Source of the DNA: a virus
Length of the DNA: 64,000 nt
Virus record (IMG/VR): IMGVR_UViG_3300032093_000089
Location: 1 to 64,000 of that record
Strand: one strand, 5' to 3'
This document shows, one piece after another, positions 15,153-60,730 of the stretch. Both the position numbers and the translations under genes were made by a program. Within the stretch, counting starts at the first letter, position 1. Each line of letters begins with the position of its first letter. Under the pieces are notes generated by a model. That model saw nothing but the letters and a program-made list of their open reading frames with translations, was not told where the DNA came from and did no database searches.

Positions 15153-16130
15153 TTATAAACAACCTTTAATTAAATCTCTAATTCCATCTTTAAAATTATA
15201 TTGTGCACTCCAACCAAGCTTTTGAATCTTGTTTGGGTTGATGGCATATTTCAAATCATTGCCGGGCCTATCAGTTACATGTTGAATTAACCTTGAATGA
15301 GGCGCATGCTCCGGCCTTAACTCATCTAAAACACTGCAAATTGTGTACACAACTTCAATGTTGGTGAGTTCTCCGTCGCCGCCAATACAATACTGCTGAC
15401 CCACCAATCCTTTATCCATTACCAATAACAGGGCATTAACGTGATCTTCCACATGCAGCCAATCACGTATGTTCTCCCCTTTTCCATGAACCGTGATCGG
15501 TTTTTCCGCCAACGCATTGGTAATCGTCATTGGTATTAGCTTCTCTGGATGTTGACCAGGGCCATAGTTATTGCTGCAGTTTGTTATGACCGCAGGAAAC
15601 TTGTAGGTGTTGTGCCAGGCCATCACTAAATGGTCGCTGGCTGCTTTACTTGCTGAGTAGGGTGAGCGTGGGTTATATGGCGTAGTTTCTACAAAATAGG
15701 TTTCAATGTCGTCTGGACGCAAAGATCCAAATACCTCGTCGGTGCTTACATGAAGGAATTTAAAATCATCTTCCATGTATAAACGACAAGCTTCTAGTAA
15801 GTTAAATGTACCAACAATGTTGCTGTAAATAAAATCTTTGGGGTTGTGAATAGAATTATCAACATGACTTTCGGCGGCAAGGTGAAAAATTTTATCAGGT
15901 TGTAAAATACGAATCCACTCCTGAACAATAGTTTCATCGGTTAAGTTGTACGGCAATAATTGATATCGATTTTTAGCATCAGTATAAGTATTTAACTCAG
16001 CTGCATTACTGGCATAACCAAGTTTGTCAAAATTGTAAATAAATAAATTAGGAATTTTAAGGAGACGTTTAATTAAATGACGCCCAATAAATCCGGCACC
16101 GCCGGTAACAAGAATTTTTTCCATATTCAT
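15153..16130 (-). CDS. rmlB: dTDP-glucose 4,6-dehydratase
   Basis: The 325-residue product makes dTDP-4-keto-6-deoxyglucose from dTDP-glucose. It is an extended SDR enzyme with an NAD motif TGGAGFIG (about 9-16), the RmlB motif HLAAESHVD, STDEVFG containing the Thr-Asp-Glu catalytic residues, and YSASKAASDH with the catalytic Tyr and Lys. Length is typical for a compact family member. The start may be the ATG two codons downstream. It lies 3 nt after rmlC and provides the common intermediate for the sugar cluster. Confidence 0.92.
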   Translation of the reverse strand: MNMEKILVTGGAGFIGRHLIKRLLKIPNLFIYNFDKLGYASNAAELNTYTDAKNRYQLLPYNLTDETIVQEWIRILQPDKIFHLAAESHVDNSIHNPKDFIYSNIVGTFNLLEACRLYMEDDFKFLHVSTDEVFGSLRPDDIETYFVETTPYNPRSPYSASKAASDHLVMAWHNTYKFPAVITNCSNNYGPGQHPEKLIPMTITNALAEKPITVHGKGENIRDWLHVEDHVNALLLVMDKGLVGQQYCIGGDGELTNIEVVYTICSVLDELRPEHAPHSRLIQHVTDRPGNDLKYAINPNKIQKLGWSAQYNFKDGIRDLIKGCL

Positions 16131-16133
16131 ATA

Positions 16134-16802
16134 CTAATCAAAAACTTCTGCTTTTTTCAAGGGTGTTCCATGTTTATCTTTAATGGATAAAATAGGGTTT
16201 TTAAATTTTTTCCAACTGATATTTAAATCTTCATCAGACCAAAGCAATGTTCGTTCGTACTCTGGGTTATGTACTTGAGTTATTTTATACAACACGTCAG
16301 CTCGATCTCCTAGTACGCAATACCCATGAGCAAATCCAGGTGGAATCCATAGCATGTCATAAGGTCGTTTGTCTCCATTGAGGTAAACATTCAACCATTG
16401 ACCAAACGTTTCAGAAGATTTACGGATGTCCACAACAACATCTTGGATTTCACCACGAATACAACGGACTAGCTTCCCTTGTTGATGAGGCGGTAACTGG
16501 TAGTGCAATCCACGGAGAACGTTACGGTTTGAAATCACATAAGAATCTTGGCAAAATGTGTGGTCGCCAAAAATTTTTTTGTGTTTAACTTCATGCCAAT
16601 GATCGGAAAAGGTTCCACGTTCATCCTCATATCGATCAACCGTAATTAACTTCAAGCCATCCAGATGCAGTGGACAGACTTTCATGCGTGGTTCAAAACG
16701 ATTGGGGAAACCGGGTAGCACTGATTCCAAACTGGTAAAGTAACGCTTTAAACGTTCTTGTTCAGCTGAAACTTTATAGTTGTTGGTTTGAGGGGTGACC
16801 AA
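16134..16802 (-). CDS. rmlC: dTDP-4-dehydrorhamnose 3,5-epimerase-type cupin
   Basis: The product has the RmlC core: DERGTFSDHWHE, RNVLRGLHYQ (catalytic His), GKLVRCIRGEIQDVVVDIR and WIPPGFAHGYCVL. At 222 residues it is longer than the usual 180-190, mainly through an N-terminal extension of about 45 residues. It may act on the 4-keto product of the neighbouring RmlB. No RmlD or RmlA was found in the window, so the final sugar need not be rhamnose. Confidence 0.9.
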   Translation of the reverse strand: MVTPQTNNYKVSAEQERLKRYFTSLESVLPGFPNRFEPRMKVCPLHLDGLKLITVDRYEDERGTFSDHWHEVKHKKIFGDHTFCQDSYVISNRNVLRGLHYQLPPHQQGKLVRCIRGEIQDVVVDIRKSSETFGQWLNVYLNGDKRPYDMLWIPPGFAHGYCVLGDRADVLYKITQVHNPEYERTLLWSDEDLNISWKKFKNPILSIKDKHGTPLKKAEVFD

Positions 16803-16971
16803 ATTTTTCCATCAATGCGTCCATACATTCTAAAGATTCCAGACGCATCAGGATATCAGAAATTGCATTGATAGTAATTGGATGTTCAGCTCGTGCTGCA
16901 AAAGCTAAAGCATCACGAAGATTAGTGGTAGCAAGATGAACTGCTTCCTTAACTTGATTGGATAATGCCAT
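16774..16971 (-). CDS. Small helical protein, 65 aa
   Basis: I start it at MALSNQVKEAVHLATTN (16971); a longer frame from 17016 would run into the inverted repeat. It overlaps rmlC by 29 nt and so belongs to the operon. The sequence is amphipathic and helical. Function is unknown. Confidence 0.55.
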   Translation of the reverse strand: MALSNQVKEAVHLATTNLRDALAFAARAEHPITINAISDILMRLESLECMDALMEKFGHPSNQQL

Positions 16972-17003
16972 TTCAGAATGCCTTGGTCTTCTTACTATAA
17001 CGG

Positions 17004-17050
17004 CTGTGCCAAACATGCAGTTTAAAATCTCTGCTATTAGTTTGGCACAG
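17004..17050. repeat. Perfect 11-bp inverted repeat with nested stem
   Basis: CTGTGCCAAAC (17004-17014) and GTTTGGCACAG (17040-17050) are perfectly complementary, with a nested GCAG/CTGC pair inside. The repeat lies between two minus-strand sugar-operon genes. The T-rich tail (GTTTTTAAA) is on the + side, where no gene would use it. It may be an RNA processing or attenuation hairpin, or a protein-binding palindrome. Confidence 0.7.
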
Positions 17051-17079
17051 GTTTTTAAATTGGGTATTCGGTTGTTTTT

Positions 17080-18297
17080 TTATTTTTGTAGGGAATACTC
17101 TAATACAGTTGTTGAAATGTATTCAAGGTTTTCACGAGTAATTGTGGGGGCGGTGCCCAGGAAAAATACATGCTTTAACACTTGATAGGCATTTGGATAA
17201 TCTTTTGCATTGCCTAAGTGTCTGTACGCAGGATGAAGCAACAAATTACCGGCAAAATAATTGCGGGTTTGAATTCCGTTTTCTTCTAGATGCAACTGTA
17301 AAGTTTTCTTTACAAGTTCGTTATTGCAGATAATGGGGACTCCAAACCATGATGTTTCTGCTTCTGGTAGCTCTTGTACAACACGTACTGCGTCACCAAA
17401 AACTTCAAGAATTTTTTTAATTTGTGTGTAGTTAAACCGGCGCTTGGAATGGATCTCGTCAAACTTTTTTAATTGAACCTGACCCACTGCACCTTGCATG
17501 TCAATTGGTTTTAAGTTGTAACCAATCTGACTAAACACATATTTGTGATCTACGATTCCGTCGTAACCATCAAGCCATGTGTCAAAACGTTTGCCGCAAC
17601 TACCATTGATTAGCTGGTTGCAGGCACCAACGCAATAGCAGTCACGCCCCCACCAAGCAAACTGGCGTGCGAGTGTCACAACATCTGAAATGTTTGACGA
17701 CACCATTCCACCTTCCATTGTGGTGATGTGGTGCGCAGGATAAAAAGAACAAGATGCAGCAACGGCATGTTGTGTCAGATATTCATTTTTCCATTTGGAC
17801 CCAAGGGAATCACAATTATCTGCAACGTATTTAATTTCGTATTGATCACAGATGTTTAATAAACGATCCATGTTGTAACTGTTGCCTAACACTGGGCTGC
17901 TAAATACAGCAACAGTTTTAGGTGTAATAGCTTCTTCAACTCGATCAAGATCCCAATTCAAATCATCCCAAGTTATGTCTACAAATTTAGGGACAAGATT
18001 ATTTTGAATGATTGGGTTAATGGTGGTGGGAAAACCAACAACACTTACGATAATTTCAGAGCCATCTGGCCATTCAAAATATTTTTTAAGGGCAGCAATC
18101 ATTACAAGATTAGCGGAGCTACCACTATTAACCATTAAGGAATCAGAGAATCCAAAACGTTTAGAAAACTGTCGTTCAAATTTATCTACTTCTTTTCCAG
18201 CTGGGTACCAAGCACCTTCTTTCAAGCAAGCAATAGCTGCGTCAATTTCTGTTCCATCAAAGTACGGTCCGGAGTACAGAACTTTTGATTTAGACAT
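17080..18297 (-). CDS. E1-type CDP/NDP-4-keto-6-deoxyhexose 3-dehydrase (DegT family, PMP + 2Fe-2S)
   Basis: The 405-residue DegT/StrS-fold protein has the marks of RfbH/DdhC (E1). His189 (FYPAHHIT) replaces the PLP-binding Lys of aminotransferases. Cysteines fit the E1 [2Fe-2S] pattern: C162, 57 residues, C220, one residue, C222, then C234 after 11 residues (7 in classic E1). E1 removes the 3-OH of a 4-keto-6-deoxyhexose through PMP and Fe-S radical chemistry, giving 3,6-dideoxyhexoses. It normally needs an E3 reductase, which I do not see here. It overlaps the upstream epimerase gene by 76 nt. Confidence 0.85.
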   Translation of the reverse strand: MSKSKVLYSGPYFDGTEIDAAIACLKEGAWYPAGKEVDKFERQFSKRFGFSDSLMVNSGSSANLVMIAALKKYFEWPDGSEIIVSVVGFPTTINPIIQNNLVPKFVDITWDDLNWDLDRVEEAITPKTVAVFSSPVLGNSYNMDRLLNICDQYEIKYVADNCDSLGSKWKNEYLTQHAVAASCSFYPAHHITTMEGGMVSSNISDVVTLARQFAWWGRDCYCVGACNQLINGSCGKRFDTWLDGYDGIVDHKYVFSQIGYNLKPIDMQGAVGQVQLKKFDEIHSKRRFNYTQIKKILEVFGDAVRVVQELPEAETSWFGVPIICNNELVKKTLQLHLEENGIQTRNYFAGNLLLHPAYRHLGNAKDYPNAYQVLKHVFFLGTAPTITRENLEYISTTVLEYSLQK

Positions 18298-25974: not shown

Positions 25975-27219
25975 ATGACTGACAACAAGCCCAAATTGCT
26001 TTGGATTGGAGATATTGTTGCAACTACGGGCTTTGCTCGTGTTACCGAAAATGTCCTTAGCCGCCTAAAAGATCGGTATGAAATTCATGTACTTGGTTGC
26101 AATTGGCATGGTGATTACACTCCTCTTCAAAATGAGTACTTTTTATACCCGGCGTCTAACCGCTTTCAGCAGGCACCGTTTGGAGAAGATCGTATTCGGG
26201 AATTGGTAGAGCGTATCCGCCCTGATGTTGTCCTTACAATTAACGACAGCTGGATTATCAATGAACAATGGCGACGAATTGCTGATTTGCGCGATCAATT
26301 GAATTTTAAATTCGTGGGTTATTATCCCATGGATTCATATGAATGGTATGGAGCACTTCTTGATACCCTCAACGATTGGGATGCGGCCATTTGCTATACA
26401 GAATTTGGCGCACAAGAAACAATCAATGCTGGATCCAAGGTTCCAATTACCGTCATTCCTCATGGAATGACTAAAAATCAATTTTATCCAACGGATAAGA
26501 AAAAAGCCAGAGAAGAGCTTGGCCTTAATCCAGACGATTTTATTGTTTTTAATGGTAATCGTAATCAATTCCGCAAACGAATTGACATTACAATCAGTGC
26601 GTTTGCCAAGTTTGCTGTTGATCGCCCTGATACAAAACTTTATCTCCACATGGGGATGAAGGATCAGGGTTGGGACATCATGCCGTTATTCGCCAGGGAA
26701 ATGGTGCGGCAGGGTCTTGATCCCAACAACAGAATTATTATGACAACTCCGCATTCAAACCCTCCTTCAGTCCCGGTAGAGCTATTGAATACAATTTATA
26801 ACGTTGCAGACGTTGGTGTTAACACATGTAAAGGTGAGGGTTGGGGACTTGTTAATTTTGAACACGCTGCTTGCCGCGTTGCTCAAGTAGTGCCTAATCA
26901 CACTTCTTGTAAAGAAATCTTTGATGGCACTGGAGAACTTATTCGTTCTCTGCATGGTGATGTAGACGTTAATTTTGGCCGGATTATGCCATGCCCGGAT
27001 GACAATCATCTAGCACAGATCTTGGGAGAGCTTTATGAAAATCGTAACAAACTTGATCAAGTTGCTCAGGCTTGTTACGACCGTGTAACGGATACCTGTT
27101 TTGATTGGAGTACGGTGTCCGATCAATTTGATGAAGTGTTTCAGGAAGTTCTTTCCAAGAAAGAAGAAAAAATCCCACAAATTGTAAAACCAAAAGCTCG
27201 AAAAAAAGCTAAAAAATAA
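25975..27219 (+). CDS. Glycosyltransferase family 4-like
   Basis: The 414-residue GT-B enzyme has an N-terminal domain with GFARVTENVLSRL and a C-terminal donor-binding domain with FNGNRNQFRKRID (the usual xRxxKxxD segment) and the GT4 motif GEGWGLVNFEHAAC (EX7E-like). A Lys-rich tail (PKARKKAKK) ends the protein. It sits alone between a possible promoter and a terminator. It may glycosylate a virion or surface component. Confidence 0.88.
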   Translation: MTDNKPKLLWIGDIVATTGFARVTENVLSRLKDRYEIHVLGCNWHGDYTPLQNEYFLYPASNRFQQAPFGEDRIRELVERIRPDVVLTINDSWIINEQWRRIADLRDQLNFKFVGYYPMDSYEWYGALLDTLNDWDAAICYTEFGAQETINAGSKVPITVIPHGMTKNQFYPTDKKKAREELGLNPDDFIVFNGNRNQFRKRIDITISAFAKFAVDRPDTKLYLHMGMKDQGWDIMPLFAREMVRQGLDPNNRIIMTTPHSNPPSVPVELLNTIYNVADVGVNTCKGEGWGLVNFEHAACRVAQVVPNHTSCKEIFDGTGELIRSLHGDVDVNFGRIMPCPDDNHLAQILGELYENRNKLDQVAQACYDRVTDTCFDWSTVSDQFDEVFQEVLSKKEEKIPQIVKPKARKKAKK

Positions 27220-29754: not shown

Positions 29755-30445
29755 TGTCCAACAACTGTTTGAAATTGCCTACATATACTTTAGGTCCAAC
29801 ATGCATACATGTAGACGTGGTATTAATCCAAATATCAAACCCTAACTGTTTTAATTTTTCGCAAAGATAAATATCCTCGCCCATAAAATGTTCGCCAATA
29901 AAATCGTACTGACAGATATTAAACAGTTGTTTACCACGAAATTCAGTTAGGGTGCTGTTGTCCGCCAATGCTTTCAAGGCTTTTCGGCCCAGCTTTAAAC
30001 AGCTGGTGCTTACCCTGTCCGCCTTTACCCAATTTCCTTCTTGCTTGGGTTCGCCTGCAAAAGAGATGTCGTAACTTTCAATATCAGTTTTTTTGACTGT
30101 AGGGATAGCCACTACATCTCGTGCATCGGTAATAACATCCAAAAAAGATTGAGCGTTACAAAAAACGTCGGAGTCAATAAAGATAAGGTTGTCAAAATCA
30201 CCCTTAATGGCAGCTGTCAACAGTTCGTTTCGGGCCATGGGGAGGATGCTCTCATAAGACAAAAGAATCATCTGAACATCAATACCCTTCATCTGACAAA
30301 GCTTTGTGATCTCATGGATGGCGTAGCTGTACCAGGCATCAACACGGCCGTCGAGAGCAGGAGTCCCAATCAGTACACGCTTTGGTTGTTTCTGAGATTG
30401 TTTAAAAGTTTTTGCCACTGGGAAAACCTTTTTTGCCATGTCCAA
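29735..30445 (-). CDS. GT-A fold glycosyltransferase
   Basis: The 236-residue product has RVLIGTPALDGRVDAWYSYA near the N-terminus, the DxD motif FIDSDVF (about residue 91) and a C-terminal GEDIYLCEKLKQLG motif, typical of a GT-A enzyme. It overlaps the GT4 gene upstream by 76 nt. It belongs to the sugar-transfer cluster next to the tail fibre. Confidence 0.8.
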   Translation of the reverse strand: MDMAKKVFPVAKTFKQSQKQPKRVLIGTPALDGRVDAWYSYAIHEITKLCQMKGIDVQMILLSYESILPMARNELLTAAIKGDFDNLIFIDSDVFCNAQSFLDVITDARDVVAIPTVKKTDIESYDISFAGEPKQEGNWVKADRVSTSCLKLGRKALKALADNSTLTEFRGKQLFNICQYDFIGEHFMGEDIYLCEKLKQLGFDIWINTTSTCMHVGPKVYVGNFKQLLDNANKTT

Positions 30446-31293
30446 TGTTTATTGTAAAATTTTGTTTGATCAGCTAAATTCTGTTGATTTTCTGGTGACC
30501 AATAATTGTCAATGACCCTGTTCAAAAGAATAGCGTAATTTTGTGCCAATCGTTCATAATTACTGTCGTAACTTATAAAGTCAGCGTATTCACCACAGGT
30601 TTCAAACAATGCACCGTAATTAGTGACCACTGCTTGGCATCCAGCGCACATTGCTTCTATTGCTGAAATGCAAGAAGTTTCTTCAAATATGCTGGGATAA
30701 GCAAAAATATGAGCGTCTTGAAGGGCGGAACGGATCTCTTCGTTTGGCGCGTATCCTTTAACATTAATTCCAGGGGTGTTTTTTAATTCTGCAAACAGCT
30801 GATCAAACTGTCCCTCCAAGGATTTAGCAAACGACTTGCCGTAAATAATTGTTGAAGAATATACGTCCAGTTCAATGTCATCTCTGTTGAGAATTTGAAA
30901 AGCACGCAATAATACATGCAGTCCGCGCCAGGGGGTTGATGTGTAGATCAACTTGAGCTTACCTTTAGGTTTATGTTTTAGCTCAAAAGCTGTCGTTGCA
31001 TTTTTAATAACAACTGACTTCCAGGCTGGCGTGTTGAATTTTTCCCTAAATTTTTCATAACACCAATGAGAGTCATAAATAAAACAATCAATTTTATCAA
31101 CAAAATTAGGGCTCTTCATGCCCTGTACATTTTCTTGGTCGTAACTCAATTCTTGTAAAAGAATGTTTTTTTTACCTGGAACAATCAATTCAGGCCTGCA
31201 TACAGAAACAATCAAGTTAATTCCGGAGAAATTTAACTTGCTTTTTAATGTTTCAACAAGGATTTCTGTGCCGCCTTTTGGTTGATCAGGCAT
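30370..31293 (-). CDS. Glycosyltransferase family 4-like
   Basis: The product is 307 residues from MPDQPKGGTEILVETLKSK (31293); a longer frame from 31341 would overlap the FkbM gene more deeply. GT-B features are LKLIYTSTPWRGLHVLLRAF, GYAPNEEIRSALQDAHIFAY and the EX7E region FEETSCISAIEAMCAGC. It overlaps the FkbM gene by 8 nt. Confidence 0.85.
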   Translation of the reverse strand: MPDQPKGGTEILVETLKSKLNFSGINLIVSVCRPELIVPGKKNILLQELSYDQENVQGMKSPNFVDKIDCFIYDSHWCYEKFREKFNTPAWKSVVIKNATTAFELKHKPKGKLKLIYTSTPWRGLHVLLRAFQILNRDDIELDVYSSTIIYGKSFAKSLEGQFDQLFAELKNTPGINVKGYAPNEEIRSALQDAHIFAYPSIFEETSCISAIEAMCAGCQAVVTNYGALFETCGEYADFISYDSNYERLAQNYAILLNRVIDNYWSPENQQNLADQTKFYNKHWTWQKRFSQWQKLLNNLRNNQSVY

Positions 31294-31891
31294 TACATTC
31301 AAACAGGAAATCAACCTGGAGTAACTGATTGTTCCGATCATAGATATTATCGATGATGTCTCGCAAGTAGTATCCTTTTTTATCCAAGTAGCTGATTACA
31401 CTTCCTGCTAAAGGAGCACCATGATTGTATTGCTGGACTGATGTTTCCAAGAGCAGATATCGTGGTCGTGTTTGTTTGAAGTATTTTTTGCCGCCTTTCA
31501 AAATGTCAAGTTCAGCGCCTTGTACATCAAGCTTAATTAAATCAAATGATGGAAAGTTTAAATCATCTATTGCATACATCCACTTTTTGAGCACCACGGG
31601 ATTGGTGTAGTAGATCGTGTTCTCACGATAGATGGAACTTCCGGTTGTGCAGCTTTCCTCCGGAAGCGTGTAGAAATCTACTTGTTTAGTTTCTTTGCCA
31701 AGTAGATAAAAATCTGTGTTAAACGCTTGAAGGAATGGCGCCTGTCGTTCGTCTCCCTCAATACATTTGATGCGTGCACCAGGAAACAACTGATGGGCTA
31801 GGCGTGCAAACTCGCCGCGATAAGCTCCAACATCTAAAACACTTGTGACAGGGTGCTCTAGATGCTGGAGGCGCTGTCGAAACCGATCCAT
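31286..31891 (-). CDS. FkbM-family methyltransferase
   Basis: The 201-residue product has the SAM-binding start VTSVLDVGAYRGEFARLA (GxxxG), CIEGDERQ, and the FkbM motif DLIKLDVQGAELDILKG. FkbM enzymes O-methylate sugars or other glycoconjugates. Its place beside two glycosyltransferases suggests methylation of the transferred sugar. Confidence 0.85.
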   Translation of the reverse strand: MDRFRQRLQHLEHPVTSVLDVGAYRGEFARLAHQLFPGARIKCIEGDERQAPFLQAFNTDFYLLGKETKQVDFYTLPEESCTTGSSIYRENTIYYTNPVVLKKWMYAIDDLNFPSFDLIKLDVQGAELDILKGGKKYFKQTRPRYLLLETSVQQYNHGAPLAGSVISYLDKKGYYLRDIIDNIYDRNNQLLQVDFLFECNA

Positions 31892-54172: not shown

Positions 54173-55336
54173 TCAAACAGTGCCGTCGTCTTGAACGAAG
54201 CTGTAGGCGGTGGTCACGAAGTCCTTGTTCAGGATTTCGAAGCCAGCGTACAGTTGCCAGATCAAGATGATGAAGCGGCTGAAGTCGTCGTTGTTGTTGA
54301 TCAACACCTGAGCATTCGGGCCACCGATACCAACACCCACAGACTGAGGACCAAAGAAGAAACCTTGGGCAACTTCCTTGGCGCTGTAGCTAGAGCCAGC
54401 GTCGAAAGAAGCCTGGATATTCTTAATCGGGAAGTTGGTTGACTCGAAGAACTTCACGCCTTCAAACTGGACGCCAGTAGGCATCACGGGCTCACCAGCC
54501 AGGAAGTAGCCCTGACCAGCTTGGGGACCCATGTAGAAGCTGGCGTTGTTAGGCATCATGGGGTTACCCATGTACATGCCTTGGCCAGGGTTGCCGGCGT
54601 AACGAGCGATCTCGCGGAAGTCGGGGTCACGACGCAGGTGCATCATGAAAGTAGGATCGCAAATGCAGCGATACAGACCATCAGAGAAGGTCGGCACGTT
54701 GCGCTTACGCAGATCCTTCACCACGTTCAGCAGGTCAGTACGCACCGAGAACTGCTGGAGGTCAGCGGTGTACTCAGTGCTGCTGTAGGTGATTTGACCA
54801 GAAGCATTCTTGGTCTTGCTACCAGGGAAGAAGTAACCACCCTGAGTAGTAGATGCAGCACCGTTAGCTTCAGCTTTGGAGAGTTCGTCAATGAACACGC
54901 GGTCGCGCCAACGACGATAGTCATCGAGCAGCGTCAGGCTACCGATGGACTGGTGGAACATGTTAAGGTTCCCGGTGTCCAGCAGCAGACGCTGAGCAGT
55001 GATCAGAGTCTCGCGAGCAATCTTGAAGGTGCTGGGCTGGGTCGGATCACCCGGGTCTGCAGGGCCAGTGTATTCCTTAAGCACCACCAGGACTTTCTCC
55101 TTGGTGATGTTACGGCTGTTAGCAGTACCAATAGTCTGGTCGGACACGCGCTCACGGCTGTCCTTGGTACCAGGGGTACCCCAGAACTTATAGCGGTCTA
55201 ACTGAACGGTTTGACCAGGCTGACGAGTGAAGTCATGAACGACCACAGGCTCGACTGCCATTTCTGCAATGTAGGCAGGATGGGGACGGTAAAGTTCCGC
55301 ACCCAAGATTTTTGGAAAATCGTTATCAATGAACAC
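54173..55336 (-). CDS. Major capsid protein
   Basis: The 387-residue product begins at a GTG with a strong site (GGAGG) 10 nt upstream. It follows the scaffold-like and portal genes, and has an N-terminal arm then KFWGTPGTKDSRERVSDQTI, DDYRRWRDRVFIDEL and CICDPTFMMHLRRDPDFREI, consistent with an HK97-type capsid. The identification rests on order, length and expression signals more than on a specific motif. Confidence 0.8.
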   Translation of the reverse strand: MFIDNDFPKILGAELYRPHPAYIAEMAVEPVVVHDFTRQPGQTVQLDRYKFWGTPGTKDSRERVSDQTIGTANSRNITKEKVLVVLKEYTGPADPGDPTQPSTFKIARETLITAQRLLLDTGNLNMFHQSIGSLTLLDDYRRWRDRVFIDELSKAEANGAASTTQGGYFFPGSKTKNASGQITYSSTEYTADLQQFSVRTDLLNVVKDLRKRNVPTFSDGLYRCICDPTFMMHLRRDPDFREIARYAGNPGQGMYMGNPMMPNNASFYMGPQAGQGYFLAGEPVMPTGVQFEGVKFFESTNFPIKNIQASFDAGSSYSAKEVAQGFFFGPQSVGVGIGGPNAQVLINNNDDFSRFIILIWQLYAGFEILNKDFVTTAYSFVQDDGTV

Positions 55337-55456: not shown

Positions 55457-56419
55457 TCACTCCATTACGAATAATTTATTCGCAACAACTTGGGGCTGAG
55501 CGTGATTCAGAACACGCCAGGCATTCTGGGGATCACGAGCCAGGGTTTCGTTAAAATCTCCCCAGAAATTACCGGGTTGCTGAGGAGCAGCAGCAGCCGG
55601 AGGAGCGGGCATGAAACCCAGTTCAGGTTGTTGAATCTGCTGGGTGGGATAACCAGGGGTTTCCAATTGGGCCTCGCTTTCGTACACAGGATAAGGACCT
55701 TCCGGACCAAAGAACTTCAGCGTGTAATCGCTGAGCACGTCAGGGTTGGTCAGAATTTCGTTATAAGCGAGGTTCTCTTGGTGCTCGTTTACAGAAAATT
55801 CAGCGTAACCCTTGACCGCCTCACTTGCGCGGTTTCCCCATGCGACGGCGCTGTCCAGCATTGTTTCCAGCTGGAGTGCGTAGTTGTTCAGGATTGACGG
55901 GGCCTCGATCCCGAACGCGTCCATCACCTGGCGGGACTCCTGGCTCATTCCCACCAGGTCCGCGATTGCCTCCAATGATGGAGTCGAGGAGGTTTGGGAA
56001 GAGCTGGGCGAGTATGCCTGGCTGGGATATGAGGTCGGCGGAGCCGATTGTGGCGTAGCTTGGGGGCTGGTCAACCCGTAGTTTGCCGGGGTATAGGTCG
56101 TCGGTGCCGACTGTTGACCCTGGAACGGGGATTGAACTGGTGCGCTCAGAAGGTTCACCACCTTGTTGAACGCCGATTCCCACGGACTCGAGATTGATTC
56201 CGCCGTCTGGACCGAGGGGGATTGGGGGGCGTACTGAGACGGCGCGAATTGGTAATTGGGGCTCGCCTGGGGCACTGCTTGGGGGTAACTGGTACCCACC
56301 TGATAAGCCACTGGAGCCGCCTGCACCTGAGGTGCTGCCACCACGTAGCTGCTTGGAGCTACCGCTACGGGCGACGGTTGGCTCGTCTGTGGGATCGATT
56401 GGACGGTAGCGTCCTGCAT
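55457..56419 (-). CDS. Scaffold-like protein, overprinted on the portal gene
   Basis: The 320-residue product starts at an ATG with a strong Shine-Dalgarno (AAAGGAGAT, 7 nt spacing). The first 200 residues are Pro/Gln/Ser/Ala-rich, then come helices (LEAIADLVGMSQESRQVMDA, ALQLETMLDSAVAWGNRASE). The C-terminal 120 residues lie past the portal stop. Location between portal and capsid, low complexity and helices fit a scaffolding protein. Positions 55821-56419 are shared with the portal frame. Confidence 0.7.
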   Translation of the reverse strand: MQDATVQSIPQTSQPSPVAVAPSSYVVAAPQVQAAPVAYQVGTSYPQAVPQASPNYQFAPSQYAPQSPSVQTAESISSPWESAFNKVVNLLSAPVQSPFQGQQSAPTTYTPANYGLTSPQATPQSAPPTSYPSQAYSPSSSQTSSTPSLEAIADLVGMSQESRQVMDAFGIEAPSILNNYALQLETMLDSAVAWGNRASEAVKGYAEFSVNEHQENLAYNEILTNPDVLSDYTLKFFGPEGPYPVYESEAQLETPGYPTQQIQQPELGFMPAPPAAAAPQQPGNFWGDFNETLARDPQNAWRVLNHAQPQVVANKLFVME

Positions 56420-58169
56420 AACTCATCTCCTTTTGTAGAGCTTCTAAAGTTCGATACAGATATGGAGTTAAATCCAATCTTGGATCCGCAGCCATCGGAA
56501 GATCCGGTGATTGCGGGTGGGGGGTCTGCATCATTCCTCCCACTAAGCGAGCAAACTGAGAGTATGCACTCTGTAGTTCGTTCACCATCCTGAACGGGAA
56601 CCCAGATAACATCTCGGCCCGTTCCTCATCCGTTTTAGACGGAAAGAGGTACTTCAGTGCTTCAATGCTATCAACACCTAATTCTTGTAGATTTCGAACA
56701 ACAATGGAGTTGTTCAAAATATCTTGTGTTGAATCCTCGTAAACAGGACCCATCCATCTCCAAAGAATCGTTACGTCCCCATCTGGAATCAAACCAGTAA
56801 CACCAGGTGGGATCTGTTGGGTTTGAACAGAAGCAAGCATTAACTGCTTGATTTGTTCATTAAAGCCGTCAAGTGCGGCTTCGTACAAATCCAATTCATC
56901 TTGGCTTGCTCCTTCTGCTGGATCAATTGGTTTTTCAATGCCAGCGGCAGCGGCCAATGTTTCTCGGAACATGCGTTCCTCTTGAAAAATAATTAATTCC
57001 AGGCATCGACTGATGCCGTGGGTATAAATAGAATTTGCTTTTTTCTTAGATGTTGCTGCAACTCGCCCAAACAAAGATTTGTATTCAGTAGCAGTGACGC
57101 CAGCAGAAATAGATAGCTCATCTACGCCACCAAGAGCGGTACGAATTTCTTCTCTGTATTGACGGGCAAAAGCATTTTGATCACCCGTAATAGCATCAGG
57201 GACAATATAACCAACACGGTCGTTTGGTTCCAGGTTTGCAATTACGCGTGGCACACGAATCTGACCGTCAACACCCCGAGTAATTGGATCTTGTTTAAAC
57301 GTAGAACGACTATAAGAACTTAAGCTGCCAAAACCAGAGTTCGCGGCAATTGACGGACGTTGTACCGCACCATCAGTACCCGACTCCATTAGGTCCGTCT
57401 TAGGACGAGACGACAGAAGAGTAGGGTTACCAAAGAAAGTAACGTTCTTCCGCATGGTGCGAACCAAGTCATCGTGCGTCACGATATGGTTGGCAACTGC
57501 ATCAAACTCGCCATAGCCTTCCATGGCAAATCCCTTCGGGTTGTTGAAGATCTCAACGCAAGGGATAAAACCTAAGGAGTTTTTAAAAGTTTTGGTTTTT
57601 CCAGGATTAGCAAAAGAAGGCATCTCGAAAGACATCTCTCCTTCCGAGTGCGTTTCTTCAATCTGTTTAGCTTTAATTGAAAGTTTGATATAACGTTTAG
57701 CGCCTTGATCTGCAGTCGTTGCACTGCCGGTTACGTTTGTGACATTGATATTATCACCAAAACCAAAACCACGACGCACCTTGTAGCTGTAGATGATGAT
57801 CACTTCCTCCAGCTCACCATCTACGTTGTAGAAGCTGCGATATTCGTGCTCACGGAAATAATAAAGCCTGTAATTCTGTTTGGTTGGACGGATATAAAAC
57901 AACCCTTTGCCGTCACATAAAAAGTAATCCCAAATGGAATCCAAACGGGTATCGAGCTGGTTGTATTTCAGTACGCGATCAATGAAATCTTTACGCTGAT
58001 TACCAAAGTTATCTTGACCAGGAAAAAATTCAACACCCTGACGAATGCCAAACAATTTCATTTGCGCCAGGTGGGAGGCAACAACGCTCGTGTCAACAAT
58101 AGCGTTACCATCTTTCTCGATATACGCGTTGACAATTTCTTGCAGTCTGGCGCTAGAGCTAGTTGCCAT
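55821..58169 (-). CDS. Portal protein
   Basis: The 782-residue product is the portal by position (after terminase, before scaffold and capsid) and by size. Segments such as FFPGQDNFGNQRKDFIDRVL, YYFREHEYRSFYNVDGELEE and ATEYKSLFGRVAATSKKKAN fit a portal of the podovirus-like, head-tail connector type. The core ends near residue 580. The last 200 residues are Gly/Pro/Ser-rich and share their DNA with the scaffold-like gene. Confidence 0.85.
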   Translation of the reverse strand: MATSSSARLQEIVNAYIEKDGNAIVDTSVVASHLAQMKLFGIRQGVEFFPGQDNFGNQRKDFIDRVLKYNQLDTRLDSIWDYFLCDGKGLFYIRPTKQNYRLYYFREHEYRSFYNVDGELEEVIIIYSYKVRRGFGFGDNINVTNVTGSATTADQGAKRYIKLSIKAKQIEETHSEGEMSFEMPSFANPGKTKTFKNSLGFIPCVEIFNNPKGFAMEGYGEFDAVANHIVTHDDLVRTMRKNVTFFGNPTLLSSRPKTDLMESGTDGAVQRPSIAANSGFGSLSSYSRSTFKQDPITRGVDGQIRVPRVIANLEPNDRVGYIVPDAITGDQNAFARQYREEIRTALGGVDELSISAGVTATEYKSLFGRVAATSKKKANSIYTHGISRCLELIIFQEERMFRETLAAAAGIEKPIDPAEGASQDELDLYEAALDGFNEQIKQLMLASVQTQQIPPGVTGLIPDGDVTILWRWMGPVYEDSTQDILNNSIVVRNLQELGVDSIEALKYLFPSKTDEERAEMLSGFPFRMVNELQSAYSQFARLVGGMMQTPHPQSPDLPMAADPRLDLTPYLYRTLEALQKEMSYAGRYRPIDPTDEPTVARSGSSKQLRGGSTSGAGGSSGLSGGYQLPPSSAPGEPQLPIRAVSVRPPIPLGPDGGINLESVGIGVQQGGEPSERTSSIPVPGSTVGTDDLYPGKLRVDQPPSYATIGSADLISQPGILAQLFPNLLDSIIGGNRGPGGNEPGVPPGDGRVRDRGPVNPEQLRTPAGNNAGQRRRMGKPRK

Positions 58170-58692: not shown

Positions 58693-58878
58693 TTACTCGT
58701 CTTCTTCTACTTCATACAAAGATGGATCAGCAACTTTTGAGATGTGGATGCCATCACCTTGCATATCCCAGTTCACAATATCTCCTTCTTTCCAACCGAG
58801 TTCTTCCATTAACTCATCTGGGAAAGTGATAAATTGCTCACCGTTTTCGTCTTCTTCCACCTCAAGAATGTAGCTCAT
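58693..58878 (-). CDS. AbrB/SpoVT-like small protein, 61 aa
   Basis: The product has FITFPDELMEELGWKEGDIV and a two-strand end (NWDMQGDGIHISKV), matching the AbrB/MazE swapped-hairpin pattern. It may bind DNA as a regulator, or be an orphan antitoxin-type protein. It is ATGA-coupled to the gene upstream. Confidence 0.65.
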   Translation of the reverse strand: MSYILEVEEDENGEQFITFPDELMEELGWKEGDIVNWDMQGDGIHISKVADPSLYEVEEDE

Positions 58879-59200: not shown

Positions 59201-60730
59201 TTAAAAATCAAGATGGAGTTGCCCTTTCCTAGCTAAACCTGTTACTAACCATACCAACGCATCCACACAATCGTCATGGCTACTGACGCCGAAATTCGTG
59301 AGTTCCTCGAAGAGATTTGTGAAATTCCTGAAGCGGTTGAAGATGATTTTTCGATCTTCAAACATGCCAATGATCCCCCTAAACCGTGCCAACTTGTCCG
59401 CACGGAATCCTTTAACGGGATGCCAAATCAAATTGTAGAGACCTTCGTTATTCAAACAAACCCGTTTAAAGTCGGCTTCCAAAGATGCTTGGTACTGGAC
59501 GGCTTCTGACCAAATATCACACGTAGAGTAAGTCGGGAAATAGTTATCGTTAGCATCTTTACCAATGATGGACCAGTCATTGAGTAACTCTTTCATGGCG
59601 TCTAGTTTTTCCAGATTACCCATGACCCGGATACGACGGTAATCAATGATATGAATACGATCTCCGATGCGACCGCCTAAAATCATTACCGTGTAATCGT
59701 TTTTTTCTTTTACGCCTGCAGATAAGTCAACACCAATTCCAAGTGTATCGAATTCAGTTGAGATCTCTGCTTTAACAATTAATTCTGGTGCCAGAGATAG
59801 TTCGTTCTGTCGAACGACTTGATTCATATATTGAAACGAAAAAGCGATTGGCGCTTGGCGTTTCTTTTCTTTTAAATAATCCAACGACCACATTTCTGGC
59901 CAGTAAGATTCCTCATCACCAGTAACCGGATCAGTTTGGATGGCAGAAAGAACAATCTGTGTCCAATTGTTTTGTTCATTAAATGTAGTGGAGTGAATAT
60001 CATCATGCCTAAAGCGGGTGCCAAGGCATATAGCCCTGCCTCCTTCGAACATGGTAGGTGCGATCACCGCGTTCCAATTATCCTGCATCATTTTCCGGAT
60101 GTCAGGGTTGGAGATATCCGCAGCTGATTTGATGGCGTCATCAATCATGACCAGATGCGAACGCTTAGAGGTCACCGAACCTTTTAGACCAGCAGCGCAG
60201 AGCGTGAATTGTTCATCACCGGTTACGTCAATACCAGCAAACTTATGGTCAATAGACCAATACTCATTACTGGTGACATTTTTTAGTAACCGAACAGTAG
60301 GGAAAATTTCTTGATATTTTTTGCTTTCAATAATCCGTTTAATTGTTGCGGACTTAGAACGTGCAATATCAACCGTATAGGAAAGATAAAGAATCTGTAG
60401 AGGAAGCTTGGCTTGTGCGTGAACACCAATCGCCCACGCAGTTAACAAACCAAGAACTGTACTTTTGGCTGAGCCCCGTGGAGCAAGTAGATCAACGTTG
60501 GGACCAGCAATTTTAATTAAACAGTTGCTGTCCTCCCCTGTAATGAAATGGCGGTGCCAATCCAAATGATGTTTAGCAGGTTTCTTTTTTTCATCCATGT
60601 ACTCACAGAAGTAACTGAAATCTTCTCGAGCACGTTCAATTAAATCTAAATTTTTCTGTGGCTTAACGTTGTATTTTTGCGCAGCAGCTTTTGCATTACG
60701 CCTATACGCAAGATGAACGTAAGAGGGCAC
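59201..60730 (-). CDS. terL: Terminase large subunit
   Basis: The 509-residue product has an ATPase domain with Walker A PRGSAKST (84-91) and Walker B LVMIDD (193-198), and a C-terminal nuclease domain with GVDLSAG (333-339, Asp335) and HDDCVDALVWL (about 485-495). It cleaves and pumps DNA into the head through the portal. It heads the packaging module. Confidence 0.95.
   Translation of the reverse strand: MPSYVHLAYRRNAKAAAQKYNVKPQKNLDLIERAREDFSYFCEYMDEKKKPAKHHLDWHRHFITGEDSNCLIKIAGPNVDLLAPRGSAKSTVLGLLTAWAIGVHAQAKLPLQILYLSYTVDIARSKSATIKRIIESKKYQEIFPTVRLLKNVTSNEYWSIDHKFAGIDVTGDEQFTLCAAGLKGSVTSKRSHLVMIDDAIKSAADISNPDIRKMMQDNWNAVIAPTMFEGGRAICLGTRFRHDDIHSTTFNEQNNWTQIVLSAIQTDPVTGDEESYWPEMWSLDYLKEKKRQAPIAFSFQYMNQVVRQNELSLAPELIVKAEISTEFDTLGIGVDLSAGVKEKNDYTVMILGGRIGDRIHIIDYRRIRVMGNLEKLDAMKELLNDWSIIGKDANDNYFPTYSTCDIWSEAVQYQASLEADFKRVCLNNEGLYNLIWHPVKGFRADKLARFRGIIGMFEDRKIIFNRFRNFTNLFEELTNFGVSSHDDCVDALVWLVTGLARKGQLHLDF

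Follow-up and report, generated by a model that had tools for sequence, protein, structure and literature searches.

A conserved out-of-frame overlap of about 600 nt between the portal gene and a scaffold-like gene in viruses of cyanobacteria

The window analyzed here (64,000 nucleotides, positions 1 to 64,000 of IMG/VR virus record IMGVR_UViG_3300032093_000089) raises the question of whether one stretch of DNA encodes parts of two different head proteins. The portal gene (58169..55821, 782 aa; coordinates are on the minus strand unless another is given) and a scaffold-like gene (56419..55457, 320 aa), which is in the +1 frame relative to the portal, are both open from 56419 to 55821. The ORF coordinates thus confirm the original prediction of a 599-nt segment (55821..56419) shared by the portal 3′ end and the scaffold start. 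Beyond the portal stop the scaffold frame extends 364 nt, where about 360 nt had been predicted. The scaffold start region reads CTACAAAAGGAGATGAGTTATG. Its ATG (56417..56419) is made from the portal Tyr584 codon plus the next base (T/ATG), and a Shine-Dalgarno-like AAAGGAG (56433..56427) lies 7 nt ahead of it, in agreement with the well-spaced ribosome binding site proposed earlier.

The portal gene lies between terminase and capsid genes and matches the PHROG_20475 profile (head and packaging, virion structural protein; the S-EIV1-type portal family) over residues 3-741 (E=2e-284). A PHROG_64 portal profile matches it weakly (E=0.04), and a sequence search of the PDB returned no match for it. 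Upstream in the same packaging cassette is the terminase large subunit (59201..60730; PHROG_38, E=6e-78; PF17289), and the gene directly downstream of the scaffold-like gene encodes the major capsid protein (54173..55336; PHROG_1357 major head protein, E=1.5e-16). The portal assignment rests on PHROG_20475, the weak portal profiles and synteny, and is not proven. Between the terminase and portal genes there is also a gene for a small MazE/AbrB-like DNA-binding domain (58693-58878, minus strand; PF04014, E=3e-7). Elsewhere the window contains sugar-modification genes (15153-18297, minus strand; 25975-27219, plus strand; 30370-31341, minus strand), including GDP-mannose dehydratase/epimerase, DegT aminotransferase and glycosyltransferases.

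The second product has no family match in Pfam, PHROGs or NCBIfam and no convincing PDB match by sequence. We name it scaffold-like because no known scaffold family or structure matched. The AF2 models of the two proteins are both of low confidence (pLDDT 37 and 44); the scaffold model places helices at residues 285-295, 297-306 and 309-316, within a C-terminal segment (residues 284-320; 55460..55570) that is encoded by scaffold-only DNA and conserved in sequence. Synteny, composition and this putative helical segment are the basis for the scaffold identity, which is not proven, and the function is inferred. Both frames could be coding without the product being a scaffold; it could instead be some other internal protein of the head, or a minor product of a portal frameshift. 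The missing family match and the poor structural model leave room for this explanation, as the only functional clues are position and composition. However, the order of portal, this gene and major capsid protein is the usual one for a scaffold and the window has no further gene between portal and capsid, while the conserved ATG, preceded in most loci by a Shine-Dalgarno sequence, speaks against a main role for frameshifting. We consider a non-scaffold product unlikely, though it cannot be set aside.

Open frames of this length might arise by chance, and GC content is 0.61 in the overlap versus 0.44 in the remainder of the portal gene. We held one protein fixed and drew codons from the other genes of the window for 20000 sequences. 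Fixing the scaffold protein left the portal frame open in 0/20000 (9.4 stops on average), and fixing the portal protein left the scaffold frame open in 48/20000. Across eight other gene stretches of the window, alternative frames on the same strand run open for at most 114 codons. Permutation of the overlap's own codons left the scaffold frame open in 7/20000 and the portal frame in 764/20000; because of the latter figure a single genome leaves some doubt, and we therefore examined relatives.

Hundreds of relatives were drawn from IMG/VR, supplemented by profile searches of cyanobacterial genomes, and the overlap was counted only in those distinct loci whose sequence allows the portal stop to be read (n=199). 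The same +1 overlap is present at the portal 3′ end in 198 of these, with a length of 266-638 nt. This recurrence settles the matter: the overlap is neither a chance nor a local feature. The 198 loci span all five clades sampled (A to E), and their portals range from 100% down to ~24% identity to the window portal (109 loci at >=70%, 82 at 52-62%, and 3 at 45-52%). The most distant are two loci of the L160 type (about 35%; 34-39% for the L160 portal itself) and two of the L243 type (about 24-27%). L160 comes from a cyanobacterial genome contig that is also in IMG/VR; L243 and its relative L246 were found by the profile searches of cyanobacterial genomes and have still more distant portals (about 24-29%). 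The PHROG_20475 profile matches the portals of L160 and L243 too, and a PHROG_533 portal profile weakly matches that of L243 (E=0.02). Homology of the clade D scaffold to those of clades A-C is supported (hhalign 94.7%, E 6e-8). The clade E scaffold (L243) is matched weakly to the others (50.7%), and its frame, start site and composition agree with theirs. The single exception is L068, where a portal-frame TAG follows 61 tail residues (L068:6930), 12 nt from the contig end, and the scaffold frame stays open up to the end of the contig. The portal tail may be dispensable there, or a base may have been miscalled.

The original prediction would have been refuted if related portals stopped near residue 580, and those we examined do not. 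Judged from these sequence comparisons, the ancestor shared by the members of this portal family most likely had the overlap already, and the overlap is far older than was first assumed. The scaffold gene had also been described as overprinted on the portal gene. The shared DNA is borne out, and whether the scaffold is the younger layer is undecidable because every relative found has the overlap; our scans for an outgroup without it recovered none among the matches listed. The lineage itself is a widespread, little-studied group of viruses of cyanobacteria.

The only matching record from a phage isolate is Synechococcus phage S-EIV1 (KJ410740), with 75% identity in the portal and 70% in the scaffold. 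It has the full scaffold frame, with the same Shine-Dalgarno sequence and ATG and the same overlap as the window. GenBank annotates the portal and only 133 residues after the portal stop, leaving the overlap unannotated; AHV82225 (L002:12327-12728) is annotated too short, and the scaffold frame begins at L002:11751, inside the S-EIV1 portal gene. Scaffold 5′ ends have been lost from annotation in this lineage because gene callers forbid long same-strand overlaps.

The start site is conserved. Four of the five clades (A, B, C and E) form the scaffold ATG from the homologous portal Tyr codon and the base after it, and CAAAAGGAGATGAGTTATGCAG at the Shine-Dalgarno-like site is invariant in the 65 near relatives listed. 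In clade D (L160 and L163) the start is shifted downstream behind a stop, and the overlap is 344-359 nt. A Shine-Dalgarno-like core is found in 109/109 near loci and 81/82 marine loci; clades C and D lack one, as does L243.

Conserved motifs occur in both proteins. Within the overlap, the scaffold motif WESAFNKVVNLLS (residues 80-92; 56144..56182) is near-invariant in the alignment, and similar W/LL segments occur in L160 (EWGQVTNRLLDMV) and L243 (SWYQQTISSLLG). Also inside the overlap is the portal tail motif IPVPGSTV (residues 680-687; 56109..56132). Its PxxG is kept through all clades, with P and G invariant in 16/16 aligned portals down to about 26% identity. A second portal tail motif in the overlap, SADLISQPGILAQLFPNLL (residues 710-728; 55986..56042), is conserved in clades A and B and recognizable in D. 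The most conserved part of the scaffold, AYNEILTNPDVLSDYTLKFFGPEGPYP (residues 218-244; 55688..55768), lies downstream of the overlap. A Prochlorococcus protein (L084:6894-8555) carries NEAYNEILTNPDILAEYTIKFFGEDGPY, closely like the phage scaffold motif, and one other cyanobacterial genome (L248) has a weak stretch similar to NEAYNEILTNPDILAEYTIKFFGEDGPY. We rejected L084 as a distant phage, as it is a GTPase-type protein with a similar short motif. Read from its sequence without a profile, it looks like a GTPase and response-regulator fusion.

Codon substitutions in relatives had been suggested as a check on dual coding. We classed substitutions by their effect in each frame for 24 disjoint pairs of dereplicated relatives and used single-coding DNA as controls. 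In the freshwater clade, to which the window belongs, omega over scaffold codons 0-150 is 0.53 [0.39-0.69] for the portal frame and 0.31 [0.24-0.41] for the scaffold frame. As controls, a pseudo-portal frame read from scaffold-only DNA gives 1.70 [1.26-2.32], and a pseudo-scaffold frame read from portal-only DNA gives 0.95 [0.81-1.12]. In the marine clade omega is 0.64 [0.48-0.81] for the portal frame versus a control of 1.61, and 0.37 [0.28-0.48] for the scaffold frame versus 1.06. Both frames of the overlap are therefore under purifying selection in two independent clades, apart from the last ~45 portal codons in the window's clade, which are without detectable constraint (omega 2.4 for the portal frame over scaffold codons 150-185). 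The more strongly constrained frame alternates: it is the scaffold over most of the overlap, including WESAFNKVVNLLS, and the portal near codons 120-150 (ADLISQPGILAQLFPN), with an omega of 0.30 for the portal and 0.56 for the scaffold in the SADLISQPGILAQLFPNLL region.

Forward simulations were started from the real sequences of the 24 pairs with one frame alone constrained. Constraint on the scaffold only produced about 32-44 portal-frame stops and an omega for the portal of about 1.0 (lowest replicate 0.81). Constraint on the portal only produced about 26-40 scaffold-frame stops and an omega for the scaffold of about 1.0 (lowest 0.76). In the same comparison the real pairs show no stop in the portal frame and keep the scaffold frame intact, with omega values of 0.55 and 0.61 for the portal and 0.33 and 0.37 for the scaffold.

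These results bear on two explanations in which only one frame of the overlap is functional. The first, implied by the GenBank annotation of KJ410740, is that translation is limited to the downstream 133-residue ORF and that the composition of the portal tail keeps the overlapping frame open by accident; GC-rich tails can by chance extend alternative frames, as the 48 open cases above illustrate. It is contradicted by the scaffold-frame constraint within the overlap in two clades, by scaffold frames that remain intact where dozens of stops are expected without constraint, by the invariant ATG and Shine-Dalgarno sequence of the near relatives listed and by the overlap in all five clades, and we give it almost no credence. 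The second is that only the scaffold is real there: the functional portal would stop at about residue 597, and the rest of its frame would be read-through junk tolerated over a scaffold gene. The unconstrained last ~45 portal codons of clade A and the L068 portal, cut at 61 tail residues, are compatible with this; the portal-frame omega well under the controls, the absence of portal stops in all 24 pairs and the conserved PxPG and ADLxxQPGxLxQLFPN motifs are not, and we regard it as very improbable. The comparative evidence (the 198 loci, selection in both frames and the simulations) upholds the prediction that both frames are real genes.

Selection is also unusual just upstream of the scaffold ATG. 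Portal codons 492-583 (56420..56696), where there is no other ORF, have strongly reduced synonymous change; over these ~270 nt position-3 diversity is 0.25-0.29 versus about 0.52 elsewhere. The signal is weaker in the same block of the marine clade (0.39-0.44 versus 0.50). Two sequences in the block, GTTGATAG and GCACTGAA, are nearly fixed in the freshwater and marine clades. A hidden third ORF was considered and rejected, as the other frames carry stops, mostly conserved. Folding of the block RNA gives a window z of -3.0, with an RNAalifold covariation term of only -3.2. Codon-preserving shuffles give a mean z of -3.2 (freshwater) and -2.0 (marine), compared with -2.3 and -0.8 for upstream controls, with wide scatter, and the block has no match in Rfam. 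The folding evidence is modest and an RNA structure is not established; the block could be a regulatory element or a recombination tract.

We are confident that the 599-nt stretch is a true, ancient dual-coding segment, with the scaffold most likely made by internal ribosome entry within the portal message. Reading of the message in the portal frame would yield a portal that ends in a long tail of low complexity. A separate ribosome start at the internal Shine-Dalgarno sequence and ATG, in the +1 frame, would yield the scaffold-like protein; its first ~200 residues would be encoded by the DNA of the portal tail, and its last ~120 by DNA of its own. Ordinary stop-start coupling is unlikely because portal ribosomes continue to a stop about 600 nt later. 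Double coding may be tolerable because both protein stretches are low in complexity. That both proteins are made, that they are a portal and a scaffold and that the scaffold acts inside the procapsid are inferences, without proteomics or ribosome profiling. By analogy with P22, the portal tail and the scaffold stretch may face the procapsid interior, which in P22 brings together 12 portals and about 250-300 copies of the scaffold (PMC12005531); the P22 scaffold acts with the portal to start the procapsid (PMC12005531). More speculatively, the overlap may be an obligate ancient design and not a tolerated accident. Co-production could then fix the ratio of portal to scaffold or seed the portal-scaffold nucleation complex, whether through the shared message, through contact of the nascent chains or through a conserved control element in the 270 nt before the scaffold ATG. 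We consider this possible but rather unlikely.

The cassette resembles those of P22 and T7 in its gene order of portal, scaffold-type gene and major capsid protein. It differs in that 599 nt are shared out of frame; we know of no long coding DNA common to the portal and scaffold genes of P22 and T7. In the nested protease-scaffold pair of lambda, C/Nu3, the scaffold is made by internal initiation in an upstream head gene. That nesting is in frame and gives protein sequence common to both products, whereas the window pair is read in different frames and gives unrelated proteins. Out-of-frame protein pairs with internal ribosome starts include phiX174 A/B and D/E and the Rz/Rz1 genes of tailed phages. 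However, phiX174 is a small ssDNA phage and Rz/Rz1 are lysis genes, while here both genes belong to head assembly, in a dsDNA phage whose record is at least 70 kb long. The +1 same-strand arrangement is common in dsDNA viruses, likewise found here. Overlaps in DNA viruses are mostly a few nt, with a median of 14 nt (IQR 8-26) for +1 overlaps (PMC8903798), so the 599 nt is unusually long, as had been claimed. The largest overlap common across phage families at 95% nucleotide similarity is 185 nt (PMC7017920). A search of the literature, open-access only and not exhaustive, found no earlier description of portal and scaffold genes that overlap out of frame. The length and the conservation of the overlap are both unusual for a tailed dsDNA phage.

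An overlap of ~600 nt that joins two head-assembly genes and is kept down to ~24% portal identity makes the origin and persistence of overlaps in large genomes directly testable, and an isolated phage exists for such tests. It also cautions that synonymous changes in the portal gene are not neutral.
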